Below, one piece after another: positions 3,730-47,217 of a stretch of DNA of 47,217 nt (positions within the stretch are counted from its first letter, which is position 1; every line of letters starts with the position of its first letter). Source of the DNA: Dysgonamonadaceae bacterium (GTDB lineage: Bacteria > Bacteroidota > Bacteroidia > Bacteroidales > Azobacteroidaceae). A program made the translations under genes and the position numbers. Location of the stretch: assembly GCA_031289145.1 (NCBI GenBank), contig JAITQA010000043.1, positions 1-47,217 of the forward strand, read 5' to 3'. The notes under the pieces were generated by a model. That model did not search any database, was not told the DNA's origin, and saw nothing but the letters and a program-made list of their open reading frames with translations.

Positions 3730-4971
3730 TTATTGATACGATTGATTGAGCCAAGGCAAAGGGTCTAATTTTGTCTGCTCTTTCCAGAGTTCGAAATGCA
3801 AGGTAGAATTACCTTTTTCATTATCAGTATAAATTTTCCCCAAAGCTTGTCCTAATTTCACTTTATTTCCTTGTTTTACATATACTTGTTCAATGTTTGA
3901 ATACAATGTCAGGTAATTTCCATGCCGGATAATAATAGAATTTTTGAATCCGGGGATGGTAAAAATTCTGGAAACAATCCCTTCAAACACGGCATTTGCT
4001 TCATTATTGGGTGTTGTTTCAATTTCAATTCCATTGTTATTCAACTTGACCAAAGAAAATTCTTCGTGTTGATAGACGCCGAAATAACCGACAATTTTGT
4101 AATTACCTTTTAAGGGGAAGGGGAGACTTCCTTTGTTGCCTTCGAAGCTAGACGACAAGTTCTTTTCTACCGGCGTCATAGCATAGCCGCCTTTTTCGTC
4201 GGCTACCCGGTTTTCGCTTCCGGCCACTTCCGCCTTTTTTTCGGATAAGGCAATTTCTTCGGCAATAATTCGCTCTATTTCCCGGTTCAGGGCATTGGCC
4301 TGGCGTTGTTTTTTGGCCAACTCTTCCATGAGTTTTTTCTTGTCTTTTTCAAGCGATTTGACCTCCTCATTTTGGGTCGATTTTTGCCGGTTTAATTTAT
4401 CTTCTTCCGTTTGGCGAACATCCAGCAGTTCTAATTTTTTTTGCCGGTTATTTTCTAATAGTAATTTTTCCGTATGAATCTCATTTTGTTTTTCGACAAT
4501 TTTATCCGCTTGTAGTTTGTTCCAAATGGAAAATTCCTTCAAATAACGAATCCGGTGAATGGTTTGTGTGAAATTTTTTGCGGAAAGGATGAACAGTAAG
4601 TTATCCTGAACATTTTTATGGGCATACATCTTTCGGACAGATACGGCATAATCTTTTTTCTTTTTTTCCATATCTTCTTCTAAAGATTTAATTAGTAATT
4701 TCCTGAATGATATTTCTTTATCTAAAACCTCGATTTCCTGATTCAAAACATTGATGACTTTTTTACGGGAATTGATTTGTTGTAAAAGCAAAGACAAACG
4801 GTTGATAGCATTACTGGTAATCTTTTTGTTTTCGTTCAGTAAAAGATTAGTTTGCTCAATTTCCGCCAATGCAGCCGATCTTTCTTTCTCCAGATCCCTT
4901 ATTCTTGCCGATTGCTGTGCCGGTAAGTAAGAAGCGACAAATACCAAAAATAAGACCAGTTTGTACTTCAT
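3730..4971 (-). CDS. EnvC-like murein hydrolase activator with degenerate LytM domain
   Basis: The 413-residue protein has an N-terminal signal sequence ending near PAQQSA. A long coiled coil rich in K, E, Q and L spans about residues 20-240, and a C-terminal LytM/M23 domain spans about 285-405. The usual M23 zinc ligands appear to be missing: the H-x(n)-D region reads NNNGIEIE, and the usual HLHFE motif reads TLHFEL. This matches EnvC-type factors that activate cell-wall amidases rather than cutting peptidoglycan themselves. Its start overlaps the stop of the DUF4292 gene by 4 bases. Placement in the periplasm is inferred. Confidence 0.85.
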   Translation of the reverse strand: MKYKLVLFLVFVASYLPAQQSARIRDLEKERSAALAEIEQTNLLLNENKKITSNAINRLSLLLQQINSRKKVINVLNQEIEVLDKEISFRKLLIKSLEEDMEKKKKDYAVSVRKMYAHKNVQDNLLFILSAKNFTQTIHRIRYLKEFSIWNKLQADKIVEKQNEIHTEKLLLENNRQKKLELLDVRQTEEDKLNRQKSTQNEEVKSLEKDKKKLMEELAKKQRQANALNREIERIIAEEIALSEKKAEVAGSENRVADEKGGYAMTPVEKNLSSSFEGNKGSLPFPLKGNYKIVGYFGVYQHEEFSLVKLNNNGIEIETTPNNEANAVFEGIVSRIFTIPGFKNSIIIRHGNYLTLYSNIEQVYVKQGNKVKLGQALGKIYTDNEKGNSTLHFELWKEQTKLDPLPWLNQSYQ

Positions 4972-9426: not shown

Positions 9427-11073
9427 ATGACAAAAAGCGCATTACAAATTGCCAGGGCCAGCTATAAGCCCAAAGTTCCAAAAACATTGGAAGGTATCGT
9501 AGCAATTCAGGAAGGACAAGACACACAGGCTGTCTCAGACCAGGAAGAGATTAAAAGACTTTTTCCCAACACTTGCGGAATGCCTGTAATTACATTTATA
9601 AGCGATACGGAAAAAAAATCTTATTCACCTGTTAATGTGGGCGTTATTCTGTCAGGCGGACAGGCTCCCGGCGGACACAATGTGATTGCCGGCATTTTCG
9701 ACGGCATCAAAGAAATGAATCCGGCAAGTCGTTTGTATGGTTTCATCTTAGGCCCCGGCGGATTGGTCGACCATAAGTATATGGAACTGACGGCCGATAT
9801 TATTAACGAATACCGCAATACCGGCGGTTTCGATATCATTGGTTCGGGACGTACCAAATTAGAAACCAAAGAACAATTCGAAAAAGGATTGGAAATTTTG
9901 AAAAAATTGGCCATTTCGGCTTTGGTTATCATCGGAGGAGACGACTCCAATACCAATGCCTGCGTGCTGGCCGAATATTATGCCCAAATCGGGGCAGGTG
10001 TTCAGGTAATCGGTTGCCCGAAAACCATTGACGGTGACTTGAAAAACGAAATGATAGAAGCGTCTTTTGGTTTTGATACGGCTTGTAAAGTATATTCCGA
10101 GGTTATCGGCAATATCCAGCGTGATTGCAATTCCGCCCGCAAATATTGGCATTTCATCAAACTGATGGGTCGTTCGGCTTCGCATATCGCTTTGGAATGT
10201 GCCCTTCAGGTACAACCCAATATCTGTATTATTTCGGAAGAAGTGGAAGCGAAAAACCAGTCTTTGGACGATGTTATCAACGATGTTGCGGAAAAAGTTG
10301 CCCAAAGAGCCGAAAAAGGTAACAATTTCGGAACAGTTCTGATTCCCGAAGGTCTGATTGAGTTTATTCCGGCTATAAAAAAACTGATGGCCGAACTGAA
10401 CGATTACCTGGCGAACAATGACGAAGAATTCAAACGGGTGAAACGCTCTCAGCAAAGGGCGCATATCATAGACAAACTCAGCCCGGTAAACGCAAAAATC
10501 TACGCCAGTTTGCCGGAAGCTGTTGCCCGTCAGTTGACTTTAGACCGCGACCCGCATGGCAATGTACAAGTTTCTTTGATAGAAACAGAGAAATTATTAG
10601 CCGAAATGGTAGGAAACCGTTTGGCGGAATGGGCTGCCGAGGGAAAATACAAAGGCAAATTTGCTACACAGGTGCACTTTTTCGGTTATGAAGGCCGTTG
10701 TGCCGCGCCCTCCAATTACGATGCGGATTATTGCTATTCTTTGGGATTCACGGCTGCAGGCTTAATCAGTTTTGGTAAGACAGGTTACATGTCATCGGTC
10801 AGAAACACTACTGCGCCGGCGGCAGAATGGATTGCAGGAGGCGTGCCCATCACCATGATGATGAATATGGAGCGTCGCCACGGCGGAATGAAGCCGGTTA
10901 TACAGAAAGCCCTGGTAAAATTAGACGGTGCGCCTTTCAAAGAATTTGCCGCTCACCGGGATGCATGGGCTATCAATACCGATTACGTTTATCCGGGACC
11001 TATTCAGTACTTTGGTCCGACGGAAGTCTGCGACCAACCGACAAAGACTTTGCAGATTGAGCAGAAAGCATGA
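9427..11073 (+). CDS. pfp: Diphosphate--fructose-6-phosphate 1-phosphotransferase (PPi-PFK, long form)
   Basis: Reversibly phosphorylates fructose 6-phosphate with pyrophosphate in glycolysis and gluconeogenesis. The 548-residue protein is the long form found in plants, spirochaetes and Bacteroidota. Visible motifs are [19 protein letters not shown], the phosphoryl donor region [17 protein letters not shown] with the DDS that marks PPi use, and the catalytic KTIDGDLKN. The RNA probably ends in the hairpin just downstream. The gene stands alone and is divergent from the flippase. Confidence 0.95.
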
Positions 11074-43487: not shown

Positions 43488-44267
43488 ATGCGATTCAAAC
43501 TCACTTTACTGACCGATAAAAAAGCTTTTGGGAACCAACTGCCCTTGAATTATCAATATGAACTTTCGGCTTTTGTGTATCGGTCTATTGCGCAAGCCGA
43601 TAGGGATTATGCTTTGTGGCTTCACGAAAACGGATTCCGGTTAGAAGGAAAACCATTTAAATTATTTACATTCTCTAATTTGCTTATTACGCAGTACAAA
43701 ATCGACAAAAACTCCGACCGGATACGGATCGAAAGCGACCGGGTGGAGTGGTTAGTCTCTTTTTTACCCGAAACGGCGACAGAGAAATTTGTCCACGGAC
43801 TTTTCTCCGAACAGGTGTTTCAAATCGGCGACAAAAAATCGGTGGTGCAATTCCGGATAGCACAGATAGAAGTGCTGCCAATGCCCACTTTTGAACCGGA
43901 AATGCGTTTTCGGACGCTTTCGCCCGCCAGCATTTCGTATCGGAAAGAAGAAGAACGCTATCCGGATTACATCTCGCCGGAACATCCGGAAGCCGCCGGA
44001 ATTGTGCTGAATAATTTGTTGAACAAATACCACACGTTTTATGGTAAGCCTTACGAGAGAAAAATTGACTTTACGTTCCAGCCGACGAATAAACCGAGAA
44101 CCAAACTGATTAAGATAAAATCCGGAATGCCGGAGGAGACTTTTATCAGAGGGTATCTGTTTGAGTTTAAGATGCGGGCGGATGTGGAATTGATGCGGGT
44201 AATGTATGCGTCGGGGATAGGAGAGAAGGGGAGCCAGGGGTTTGGGATGGTGGAGATAATGGGATGA
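43488..44267 (+). CDS. cas6: CRISPR-associated endoribonuclease Cas6
   Basis: Cuts the precursor CRISPR RNA within each repeat to give crRNAs. The 259-residue protein starts MRFKLTLLTDKKAFGNQLPL and ends with the glycine-rich loop ASGIGEKGSQGFGMVEIMG that marks Cas6. Between them are two ferredoxin-like folds with segments such as FTFSNLLITQYKI and LFEFKMRADVELMRVMY. Cas6 of this type uses a histidine near the N-terminus in many members; here LWLHENGFRLEG is a candidate. It has its own promoter and is followed by a 194-base gap before cas8b1. Confidence 0.93.
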   Translation: MRFKLTLLTDKKAFGNQLPLNYQYELSAFVYRSIAQADRDYALWLHENGFRLEGKPFKLFTFSNLLITQYKIDKNSDRIRIESDRVEWLVSFLPETATEKFVHGLFSEQVFQIGDKKSVVQFRIAQIEVLPMPTFEPEMRFRTLSPASISYRKEEERYPDYISPEHPEAAGIVLNNLLNKYHTFYGKPYERKIDFTFQPTNKPRTKLIKIKSGMPEETFIRGYLFEFKMRADVELMRVMYASGIGEKGSQGFGMVEIMG

Positions 44268-44275
44268 TTTATAGC

Positions 44276-44356
44276 AAAAAAAAGGTTTAGTCTTAATCAA
44301 ATATATAATTAATTATTTCAAATCTAAAATAGTTCAATTTGTTTGTAAGACTAAAC
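44276..44356 (-). ncRNA. Candidate crRNA-like guide RNA between cas6 and cas8b1
   Basis: Minus-strand RNA of about 80 bases inferred from a TATCTTTG -7 box at 44370-44363. It would begin near GTTTAGTCTTA (44356-44346, by plus numbering 44346-44356). A repeat-like stretch of 30 bases ends in GATTTGAAAT at 44315. The 16 bases AATTAATTATATATTT (44314-44299) follow as a spacer-like part. TAAGACTAAAC (44295-44285) pairs perfectly with the 5' end, and eight T at 44283-44276 follow. The repeat-like end GAAAT is typical of type I-B repeats. The same 16 bases occur next to CCA in the cas8b1 promoter. Alternative: a plain terminator of cas6. Confidence 0.45.
44299..44314 (+). repeat. 16-base direct repeat, copy 1 (spacer-like part)
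   Basis: AAATATATAATTAATT, identical to 44385-44400. On the minus strand it follows the repeat-like GAAAT directly. Confidence 0.85.
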
Positions 44357-44362
44357 TTTTTG

Positions 44363-44370
44363 CAAAGATA
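44363..44370 (-). promoter_or_regulatory. -7 box of the candidate guide RNA
   Basis: Minus-strand TATCTTTG, part of the 13-base arm TTTGCAAAGATAA at 44359-44371. The arm is the exact reverse complement of 44412-44424, so identical -7 boxes point in opposite directions. Confidence 0.45.
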
Positions 44371-44384
44371 AAAATTATTTTCTT

Positions 44385-44403
44385 AAATATATAATTAATT
44401 TGG
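44385..44403 (-). promoter_or_regulatory. Candidate target site with CCA PAM-like flank in the cas8b1 promoter
   Basis: Copy 2 of the 16-base repeat (44385-44400). Read on the minus strand it is preceded directly by CCA (44403-44401), a trinucleotide known as a PAM in several type I-B systems. Copy 1 is instead preceded by AAT of the repeat-like part. The site lies 12 bases upstream of the cas8b1 -7 box. Confidence 0.4.
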
Positions 44404-44412
44404 ATTATTTGT

Positions 44413-44420
44413 TATCTTTG
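44413..44420 (+). promoter_or_regulatory. -7 box of cas8b1
   Basis: TATCTTTG is an exact consensus match, 41 bases before ATG 44462. The expected -33 area falls in the 16-base repeat at 44385-44400 and has no TTTG. Confidence 0.5.
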
Positions 44421-44461
44421 CAAATAATATTGGAGTAGCATAAAGCATAAAAGCATATAAA

Positions 44462-45877
44462 ATGAAGGAGACCTATAATACAATTGACTATAATTGGCTG
44501 ATTCAACCAACCGGTGACCCGTTTACCGATGTAGGGGGATACGTTATAAAATATCTTTCGGAAAAAGATCCTGAAAAAGATATTTTGGAACTTATTGAAT
44601 ACATGGCTAAGATATACGTGAATAGATGGAGTGGAAAAATAAATCCTTTTTTCCTAAATTCGGCTATAACTCAACCTGCTTTTAAAGGAGATGTAAAGAT
44701 AAAAGAGACGATTAAATATTTTTCATCTTTGCTTAATGAAACAGCGAGCAATGAAACCGGATTTTGCAGAATAACAGGCAGAAAAGCTAAATTATTTAAA
44801 GCAGGGCGAGATAATTCACTCATGTCCGGTTCCGGTGGATTTGTAAATTTCCATCATAATTTTCAATTTGGGTTGATGTTATCGAAGGAAATGCTTATCC
44901 GGATGCTTTTTATTCCTTACGGGTCAATATTTATTGGCGGGCGAATTGCTGTTATTTACAGCAATGATGCACAGGTAAACGAATTTTTTGTGCGTAAAAA
45001 TTGTGAAGCAAACGATAATAATATTGCCATGGCTTCTTCTGACGGAGTGTTAAAATCGGAGTATGGAATTCCGGCTAATGCTTTATTTCGATTTGTAGAT
45101 GATTTGTTTTTAAGTCAGTTGAAAATTGCGACAGATGATGATACCGGTAAATTATCTTTGACGCTATATCATTTTACTAATTTTGGTGCAAGTCCTGAGA
45201 TTGTGATATATAAACTACCCTCCAATGTGTTCAGATTTTATTCAACATGCCAATCTATAAAATTGAAATCCGATTGGCAACAGTTTATCATGGCGCATTA
45301 TGTCAATTCAAAATTTAAAGGAGCCAAATACAATCAATCAGCATCAATTTATGAACTCACTAAAAAAGATAGCATTGAACAAATATCATTTGACGATTAT
45401 AAAACATGGCGTAATGTTGTCTTGGAAAATTTATTGAAAGAAAAATCTATTTTACGATTATTCGTAAATTGGGGAATCAAACATAAATTCAATTTTAATA
45501 TTGTAGAAATCTATCAAAAATATGTACAGAATATGAAACAAGAAACTTTAAACAAGATTAAAGAATTAGCGCTTTTTCTAACAAATACAGGAGAAGATGC
45601 TATAAAGAAAAGTATCCGCGCTTTAGATGGATACAAAAGTTCTTACGAACTTCGCCGGTTCTTTTTAAAGAACGTGGTGGCAAAAAACTATAATGATGGA
45701 AGCAACGACACAATTATTACGATGGAAGAGTTGGTCTATTATTTATTCCCTGATGATGTATCGTGGAGAGACATACGAGATATTTTACTTTTTGCAATTT
45801 ATCAAGAACTTCATGCTAAAAATATTCGTGTCGAAGCAGAATTACCTGAAGAAGAAACATATAATGAAAATGAATAA
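44462..45877 (+). CDS. cas8b1: Type I-B CRISPR-associated protein Cas8b1/Cst1
   Basis: Large subunit of the type I-B Cascade, which recognises the PAM and recruits Cas3. The 471-residue protein opens MKETYNTIDYNWLIQPTGDP and contains TGFCRITGRKAKLFKAGRDN and VNFHHNFQFGLMLSKEMLIR, in line with the Cst1 group. The possible zinc-finger cysteines seen in some Cas8 proteins are reduced here to one or two. Its place between cas6 and cas7/cst2 supports the call. It is 20 bases upstream of cas7. Confidence 0.85.
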   Translation: MKETYNTIDYNWLIQPTGDPFTDVGGYVIKYLSEKDPEKDILELIEYMAKIYVNRWSGKINPFFLNSAITQPAFKGDVKIKETIKYFSSLLNETASNETGFCRITGRKAKLFKAGRDNSLMSGSGGFVNFHHNFQFGLMLSKEMLIRMLFIPYGSIFIGGRIAVIYSNDAQVNEFFVRKNCEANDNNIAMASSDGVLKSEYGIPANALFRFVDDLFLSQLKIATDDDTGKLSLTLYHFTNFGASPEIVIYKLPSNVFRFYSTCQSIKLKSDWQQFIMAHYVNSKFKGAKYNQSASIYELTKKDSIEQISFDDYKTWRNVVLENLLKEKSILRLFVNWGIKHKFNFNIVEIYQKYVQNMKQETLNKIKELALFLTNTGEDAIKKSIRALDGYKSSYELRRFFLKNVVAKNYNDGSNDTIITMEELVYYLFPDDVSWRDIRDILLFAIYQELHAKNIRVEAELPEEETYNENE

Positions 45878-45897: not shown

Positions 45898-46980
45898 ATG
45901 AGTAATTTAAAAGCACAAGGATTTATCCTTATTGATGTAGATGTGGTAGCATTGAATAATGCGGGAAAAAACACACAAAGTAATTTTGATAATGCCGTAG
46001 GCACAAAACGAATTTATAAAGATGGGAAAAGTTATGTTTATGTTTCCGGGCAAGCATGGCGTTATTGGTGGCGAGACACTTTACAAAAAACGTTTAATTG
46101 GGAATTATCTCCAATTACGAGAGAGAGTAAGATCGCGTTTACAGCAGCTGACCCGATAAAATATGCCGATGATGATATTTTCGGTTATATGAAAGCGGCA
46201 TCAGAAGAAGTAACCGATGAAAAAGGAAAAGTAAAAAAAGAAAATGTTACAGTAACAAGGGTTTCTCCGTTAAAAAATTCGGTTCTCGTTTCTGTTGGTT
46301 CTGTTCGACCTGTTGAAAATTGGTCAAGTATGGCTCGTCAGGATGGTGATTCTGTCCCTTATGGAAAACAAGAATATAGCGCTATTATGAAAGGTATGTT
46401 CAGTTTGGATTTGGAGCAATCCGGAACTTTTGCAACCTATAATAAAACCGGATTTAAAAATCTTACAGTTGCACAGAAAAAGCAGGCATTAACCAGTGAT
46501 TTATTAACAGAAAAATGTGCAGTAGAAATTGACGACCCTTTTATGAAAGACGAGAAAGGAAAACCCTATAAACTCGTTCGTTTATTGCCACATATTCGCG
46601 AAAAGAGAATATCAGAAACTATTTTAGCATTAAAAAACATATCTGGCGGAGCCATGCAAACCAATAATATGGGAGATGTGACGCCTAAATTTATCGTTTT
46701 AGCAACATTGAATAGCGGTAATCATCCATTTTCTCACATTACTTCTTCAAGTGGAGTCAATGATGATGTAATTGATTTGAATATTGATGCACTAAAAGAG
46801 GTGTTGAAAGATTACAAAAACAATATTCAGGGAGATGTTTTTATTGGTCGGCGAAGTGGATTTTTCGACAATAAAGCGGATGCTTTAAACGAGATAGAAA
46901 AGGAATTTGCCAATGTGAAAGTTCTCACGATAAATGAAGCTATCGACCAATATACTGAACAACTGAAAAATCAATTGTAA
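45898..46980 (+). CDS. cas7: Type I-B CRISPR-associated protein Cas7/Cst2/DevR
   Basis: Backbone subunit that coats the crRNA spacer in Cascade. The 360-residue protein starts MSNLKAQGFILIDVDVVALN and has the RRM-type segment VYVSGQAWRYWWRDTLQKTF, the SVGSVRPVENWSSMAR region and LLPHIREKRISETILALKNI, all typical of Cst2/DevR. It lies 1 base upstream of cas5. DevR members were first described as negative autoregulators of the dev operon in Myxococcus, which is relevant to the regulatory idea for this locus. Confidence 0.92.
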   Translation: MSNLKAQGFILIDVDVVALNNAGKNTQSNFDNAVGTKRIYKDGKSYVYVSGQAWRYWWRDTLQKTFNWELSPITRESKIAFTAADPIKYADDDIFGYMKAASEEVTDEKGKVKKENVTVTRVSPLKNSVLVSVGSVRPVENWSSMARQDGDSVPYGKQEYSAIMKGMFSLDLEQSGTFATYNKTGFKNLTVAQKKQALTSDLLTEKCAVEIDDPFMKDEKGKPYKLVRLLPHIREKRISETILALKNISGGAMQTNNMGDVTPKFIVLATLNSGNHPFSHITSSSGVNDDVIDLNIDALKEVLKDYKNNIQGDVFIGRRSGFFDNKADALNEIEKEFANVKVLTINEAIDQYTEQLKNQL

Positions 46981-46981
46981 T

Positions 46982-47217
46982 ATGAAAGTTTTCAAAATTG
47001 ATATAACTGCGTGGACTTCAAGTTTTAAATATCCGAATTTAATTTCAGGATTTCAGCCGACACTTGAAGTTCCTCCGCTTAGTACAGTTTTGGGACTAAT
47101 CAATGCCGCAGCGGGAAAATATATTCAGCACAGGAAATTAAAAATCGGATATTATTTTGAATTTGAGGCTAAACAAATTGATTTGGAAACCATCTATCAG
47201 ATTGAGGCTCATGAAAA
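46982..47217 (+). CDS. cas5: Type I-B CRISPR-associated protein Cas5, cut by the right edge
   Basis: ATG 46982 follows the cas7 stop by 1 base and the frame is open to the window end (78 codons). It reads MKVFKIDITAWTSSFKYPNL, then TLEVPPLSTVLGLINAAAGK. The P-P-x-S-T-V-x-G-L-I-N-A-A-A-G segment is the characteristic N-terminal helix of Cas5. Cas5 holds the 5' handle of the crRNA and anchors Cas8 in Cascade. cas3, cas4, cas1, cas2 and the array are expected beyond the edge. Confidence 0.9.
   Translation, partial: MKVFKIDITAWTSSFKYPNLISGFQPTLEVPPLSTVLGLINAAAGKYIQHRKLKIGYYFEFEAKQIDLETIYQIEAHE

Follow-up and report, generated by a model that had tools for sequence, protein, structure and literature searches.

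The type I-B locus and the cas6-cas8b1 gap

The window, by which we mean the whole stretch of 47,217 nucleotides that was analysed, is one (C84) of the 169 contigs into which the 3.94-Mb genome is assembled. At its right end lies a type I-B CRISPR-Cas locus on the plus strand, consisting of cas6 (43488..44267; Cas6b by PADLOC, E 1.5e-74, and TIGR01877), cas8b1 (44462..45877; Cas8b by PADLOC, E 4.4e-26, and TIGR01908), cas7 (45898..46980; Cst2/DevR by PADLOC and NCBIfam) and cas5b (46982..47217; PADLOC), inside which the contig stops. The gap between cas6 and cas8b1 measures 194 nt and has 18% G+C. Cas6 is upstream of the promoter that appears to be targeted, and the presumably repressed operon begins with cas8b1.

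The assembly yielded neither the remainder of cas5 nor the cas1 and cas2 genes of the I-B locus, and its cas3 matches were all below the curated cut-off. Cas1 is encoded on two other contigs of the same genome, C102 and C51 (3.3 kb). On C102 it stands alongside what we take to be Cas9-like, RhuM-like and Cas2-like ORFs (L004:1-4200), and on C51 (L003) it is presumably accompanied by a Cas2-like ORF, with a 771-aa ORF between them; the repeat finder showed no I-B array on either contig. Pattern searches of the genome with the degenerate repeat described below and with the repeat of a relative, at up to 3 mismatches, found no I-B array, and one of the four other matches to the degenerate repeat (L006; 3 mismatches, as in each of the four) showed no array on reading.

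On the minus strand of the gap, all the parts that a preliminary description had laid out are present. The -7 box TATCTTTG (44370-44363), the putative promoter of a guide RNA gene, conforms to the Bacteroidota -7 type, TAnnTTTG. It is followed by the 5' arm GTTTAGTCTTA of an outer stem (44356-44346), seen in sequence and fold, by a degenerate CRISPR repeat, or psi-repeat (44344-44315), with the handle TTTGAAAT and a small CTA/TAG stem, by the guide, or psi-spacer, AATTAATTATATATTT (44314-44299), by the 3' arm TAAGACTAAAC of the outer stem (44295-44285; sequence and fold) and by eight T (44283-44276), the presumed 3' end and terminator of the guide RNA gene after its 11-bp stem. Promoter and terminator are recognised here at the level of motifs; a sigma-70 and terminator scan gave nothing above chance, but Bacteroidota promoters and a 50-nt loop are outside its scope. 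The predicted guide RNA folds with z = -4.14. Its outer stem wraps the guide, the 5' arm of the terminator being placed 5' of the psi-repeat, and in the minimum-energy fold the guide is paired with the repeat, rather than the short repeat stem being formed. Two other identities for this element were rejected: a search of the genome with the inner 20 bases, allowing 0-2 mismatches, gives a single occurrence, which does not suit a mobile element, and Rfam gave one sub-threshold match to a plant microRNA (E 0.53).

All 16 guide bases recur on the minus strand at 44400-44385, in the cas8b1 promoter, and this second copy is the putative target (protospacer). It is found at -62 from the cas8b1 ATG, directly behind a candidate PAM, 5'-CCA-3' (44403-44401, minus strand), and 12 nt from the plus-strand -7 box TATCTTTG of the cas8b1 operon (44413-44420), a motif-level assignment 41 nt before the ATG. 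This bears out what had been said of the recurrence at the outset, and the same applies to the flanks: CCA flanks the target and AAT occupies the same place beside the guide, as should be the case for target and self. The target (44385-44400) overlies the presumed -33 region of the promoter of the guide gene itself, and the guide RNA may therefore limit itself too. It can be observed, moreover, that the protospacer lies over what we take to be the -33 region of both divergent promoters (window:44363-44420), and one Cascade could close them both.

The candidate PAM corresponds to the motif implied for the Bacteroides fragilis I-B system. In B. fragilis I-B protospacers, as described in excerpts of PMC9367070, G is favoured at downstream positions 2 and 3, a trend that, turned to guide orientation, would read CCN, as at the targets considered here. 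The B. fragilis I-B repeat given in the same source is ATTTCAATTCCATAAGGTACAATTAATAC; its reverse complement ends in GGAATTGAAAT and resembles the end of the psi-repeat. A search for phage protospacers with the L015 and L036 arrays (L numbers denote loci) gave two weak matches for the former (E 0.09), neither of them usable, and none for the latter.

Repeat likeness and chance expectation

Eight related loci contain arrays, and their repeats, in crRNA orientation, end in GAATTGAAAT (GAAAC in L036) or nearly so, like the psi-repeat; those of L034, L035 and L038 were read as reverse complements. Examples in this orientation are CTTATAATCGAACCATATTGGAATTGAAAT (L038) and CTTTTAATTGAACCAGAAGGAATTGAAAT (L015). 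The psi-repeat, AAACAAATTGAACTATTTTAGATTTGAAAT, aligns without gaps with the 30-nt array repeats, and against the best of nine reference repeats it agrees at 19 of 24 core positions, a score that 1 in 1000 shuffled gaps also attains. The earlier suggestion that this part is CRISPR-repeat-like is thereby upheld: as is looked for in a CreR RNA, a crRNA-like regulator discussed below, the psi-repeat resembles array repeats, here those of relatives. When a generic repeat was matched across the 47 kb, the psi-repeat was the best site (19), and the next, at 4022, scored 18, so that repeat likeness alone is not unique.

The small stem of the repeat seems to have been conserved through paired changes. 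In place of CCA/TGG the window has CTA/TAG and L016 has CCT/AGG, and both versions are paired. In a count over eight 30-nt rows, from which the 29-nt arrays (L014, L015, L042, B. fragilis) and the psi-repeats of L014 and L015, with a loop that is longer by eye, had been left out, 24 of 24 cells pair and two pairs are changed on both sides; 12 of 500 shuffles equal this. An automatic hairpin finder gave mixed stems.

The 16-base identity is the longest direct repeat of the gap, and none of 400 dinucleotide shuffles reaches this length (shuffles 7-13). A scan devised once the complete pattern had been recognised required TTGAAAN followed by a guide with positions 1-5 and 7-11 found again, after CCN, no more than 700 nt away. 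It returned a single site in the window, the device in the cas6-cas8b1 gap, and none in 20 block shuffles of the window (same-strand targets only). Over 342,809 bases from 26 loci the scan gave eight rows, namely four gap devices (window, L014, L015, L016), three array repeats of L040 and one other site in L037. With 9/10 allowed, and near cas8 only in 17 loci, L036 and one site in L044 were added. Among 3000 shuffled gaps each (same-strand), a pair arose 0 times for the window, once for L014, 0 times for L015, once for L016 and 15 times for L036 (at 9/10).

Guide and target in related loci

Upstream of the cas8 match, 17 Cas8b1-like loci were inspected, and the device is present in five, namely the window, L014, L015, L016 and L036. 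The other 12 of these loci are without it; in several, the ORF preceding cas8 leaves little or no space. For L043 and L044, which have partial Cas8 matches only, the stretch read is not the true upstream region of cas8, and the whole loci were pattern-scanned. L014 and L015 come from Paludibacter MAGs and L016 from a Bacteroidales MAG, with Cas8 proteins 76-77% identical to that of the window; the Cas8 of L036 has 52% identity. Further searches for relatives gave 9 distant matches in the phylum and 3 in the class, and the pattern scan found no device in eight of these 12 loci (L046-L053; L054-L057 were left out). A search in the family of genome G204 (21 genomes) added one weak match.

A hairpin that is kept without the matched bases, an outcome that would have spoken against the preliminary description, is not what these four relatives show: in each of them the guide still has its matching target. 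A CCN PAM is found in five of five (CCA in the window, L014 and L036; CCT in L015 and L016). From the end of the PAM to the TAnnTTTG box there are 9 nt in the window, 32 in L014, 23 in L015, 23 in L016 and 19 in L036. If a usual footprint length and -33 position are assumed, the L015 target may reach the -33 region of the guide gene, and the L014 target should not. All four relatives have a separate hairpin 3' of the guide instead of the wrapping stem of the window, and L036 has two repeat-like parts.

L014, L015 and L016 have a common guide, ATGAAAAAAAAT, and a common target, ATGAATAAAAA. Over the first 20 positions, guide and target differ at 6, 13 and 18 in L014, at 6, 12 and 20 in L015, at 6, 12, 18 and 20 in L016, at 7 in L036, and at 17, 19 and 20 in the window. 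According to excerpts of PMC8501985, pairing in haloarchaeal creA involves positions 1-5 and 7-11 and leaves out 6 and 12. Within the first 12 positions, the mismatches of L014-L016 are confined to 6 (and 12), positions that type I guides do not read. The mismatch of L036 is at 7, not 6, and a ranking of sites by uninterrupted match did not place its target among the first five.

Cross-matching distinguishes three guide types. Each agrees 10/10 (L036 9) with targets of its own type behind CCN, and with those of the other types at most 8/10 behind CCN, or up to 9 without a PAM. Because the guide types match their own targets and poorly those of others, it would seem that a joint replacement of the two has taken place at least once between genomes with 77% identical Cas8. 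As a control, 180 array spacers were compared with their own gaps (59 from L014, 57 from L015, 64 from L036): none agreed 10/10 behind CCN, the best being 8, and one L036 spacer matched its own gap 10/10 without a PAM. Two spacers, one each from L014 and L036, match their own loci outside the gap 10/10 behind CCN, and therefore one seed match in 20 kb is weak evidence alone. L014 also has a second 10/10 seed match, 9.8 kb off and without a PAM.

Small repeat arrangements of other kinds were noticed as well. At L042:3816-3908 (minus strand), upstream of cas8, there are two degenerate repeats about 35 nt apart, preceded, by eye, by a TACTTTTG box; no target of this mini-CRISPR was found within the 20-kb locus. 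In L038, a 748-aa ORF is closely followed, at 9740-9836 of the reverse complement, by two repeat copies spaced about 37 nt apart, one of them degenerate; the main array (start 15472) is 5.6 kb away. Among the sites listed for this 19-kb locus there was no 10/10 seed match behind CCN; the pair is another possible regulatory mini-CRISPR.

Between the targeted promoter and cas8, an ORF of 62-71 aa is present in L014 (9784-9978), L016 (2557-2766) and L036 (4147-4362). It is separate from cas8 in L014 and L036, overlaps it in L016, and in L015, from 9809, is continuous with it in a single ORF of 536 aa. The latter, which had no NCBIfam match at E 0.001, was named Cas8 by its 77% identity to the Cas8 of the window. 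The small ORF had no PADLOC match in L014, L016 and L036, and weak matches only in Pfam and PHROGs. The window and its congener L058 (Cas8 72% identical; the contig begins at the box) are without it, and in each of them box and ATG are 41 nt apart. Since the ORF overlaps cas8 in one locus and runs into it in another, the evidence points to a leader or partner of Cas8 rather than a toxin.

A proposed guide RNA for Cascade and its place among known systems

In our opinion the gap very probably contains a one-repeat CreR gene, the RNA of which would guide Cascade onto the cas8b1 promoter and block cas8b1-cas7-cas5. The observations behind this are the repeat likeness, the guide-target identity, the PAM agreement, the conservation and co-change in four relatives and the promoter and terminator motifs. 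CreR is described as a crRNA-like RNA with a partial match to a cas promoter, generally without a toxin gene, and has been reported for types I-B, I-E and V-A (excerpts of PMC12737573, PMC13131331, PMC12948488). A CreR-type RNA in Bacteroidales fits the device of the window and is well supported by its sequence. The initial proposal of a Bacteroidota version that is probably an autorepressor also fits, repression itself being something we infer, together with transcription, Cas6 processing, Cascade binding and release. Of the comparison with CreTA made at the same time, the crRNA-like guide in a cas6-cas8 gap stands, but CreR is the better name, because the targeted promoter of the window drives cas8b1 and there is no room for a toxin gene.

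By analogy with what is published on CreA (PMC8501985) and CreR, the mechanism can be pictured as follows. A short minus-strand RNA, from about 44356 to 44276, would be made between cas6 and cas8b1, and its degenerate repeat would be taken as a crRNA handle by Cas6 and the Cascade proteins. The guide would bring Cascade to the CCA-flanked site overlapping the cas8b1 promoter, where transcription of cas8b1-cas7-cas5 would be blocked. Cas3 would not be recruited, the match being too short (16 bases, in a guide that runs for about 18-20 up to the presumed terminator stem). Diversion of Cascade by array crRNAs or phage inhibitors would free the promoter and give rise to more Cascade. As cas6 lies upstream of the targeted promoter, processing could continue while Cascade is kept low. 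The L015 locus holds Cas3, Cas4, Cas1 and an array, so that a full system would be present there to be kept from self-cutting. Type I-B guides of up to 24 nt in Haloarcula and up to 26 nt in Parageobacillus give repression without cleavage in the excerpts of PMC10989794 and PMC10551041, which suggests that a 16-base match is below the I-B cutting need. In the former source, about 65-67% of the transcript remained with guides of 16 and 20 nt, and repression here may therefore be mild.

It could be imagined that the crRNA look is accidental, the gap holding no more than a bidirectional terminator hairpin and a chance AT-rich duplication. There are indeed T runs on both strands of the 11-bp stem, and the gap is 82% A+T. 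However, the shuffle tests for repeat likeness and for the whole pattern oppose such an origin, and the CCN-flanked guide-target pairs upstream of cas8 in four relatives, in other sequences, count heavily against it; we find it hardly credible. A final repeat-spacer unit in decay, or a CreR that this genome has ceased to use, would suit the degenerate repeat and the failure to find an own array, cas3 and the cas1/cas2 of the locus. Yet the 16-base identity of guide and target has been kept in DNA that is very rich in A+T, with an intact PAM and a compensated change in the stem, and the contig end in cas5 could explain the missing array and genes, which makes decay unlikely.

The small ORF after the targeted promoter in L014, L016 and L036, at 62-71 aa and with no PADLOC match, might in turn call to mind a guard of the CreTA/CrePA kind, in which the guide holds down a toxin and loss of CRISPR harms the cell. 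In the window, however, the -7 box is only 41 nt from cas8b1, with the same spacing in L058, and no toxin gene is present; furthermore, the ORF is fused to cas8 in L015 (536 aa) and overlaps it in L016. A toxin guard is accordingly very improbable.

Taking the CreR reading further, a Bacteroidales CreR lineage is conceivable in which guide and target change together and the PAM stays constant. In the window, the footprint would shut both divergent promoters and leave cas6 on, amounting to a self-limiting Cascade sensor; in the relatives, the switch would control a new small protein before, overlapping or fused to Cas8. This extended scheme is offered tentatively, as a possibility that we judge to be rather less than even.

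If the CreR reading holds, RNA-guided self-control of CRISPR would be carried into the I-B systems of Bacteroidales, and an immune system could restrain its own synthesis for as long as it is not required. The predictions of guide, target and PAM are exact and can be tested by reporter assay. The paired change of guide and target, with mismatches at positions that Cascade does not read, represents sequence-level evidence of function. A further suggestion is that small ectopic repeats next to cas genes merit attention in Bacteroidota. A literature search for CreR in this phylum gave one unrelated paper, and a wider one showed no such report by title or start of abstract among the matches listed; the primary CreR paper, reportedly that of Liu et al. 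in Cell Host Microbe in 2023, could contain such cases.

Several known systems invite comparison. The scaRNA of Francisella novicida Cas9 is alike in that an RNA with a degenerate repeat makes a CRISPR effector a repressor, and different in belonging to type II, with Cas9 and a lipoprotein operon as target (excerpts of PMC9458426). With CreA of Haloarcula hispanica, as portrayed in excerpts of PMC8501985, the device shares the one repeat, a T-rich terminator (putative here), the place in the cas6-cas8 gap and the seed of positions 1-5 and 7-11; CreA, in contrast, targets a toxin promoter with the PAM TTC, whereas here the cas8 operon would be targeted, with CCA or CCT. The likeness to CreR, as far as the excerpts cited for it go, is that the guide of the window partly matches a cas promoter, with 16/16 bases in that of cas8b1, and that there is no toxin gene. 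The device differs from CreR in its Bacteroidales host with Cas8b1, its one repeat, the putative terminator stem that wraps the guide, and a target that overlaps the presumed promoter region of the guide gene itself.
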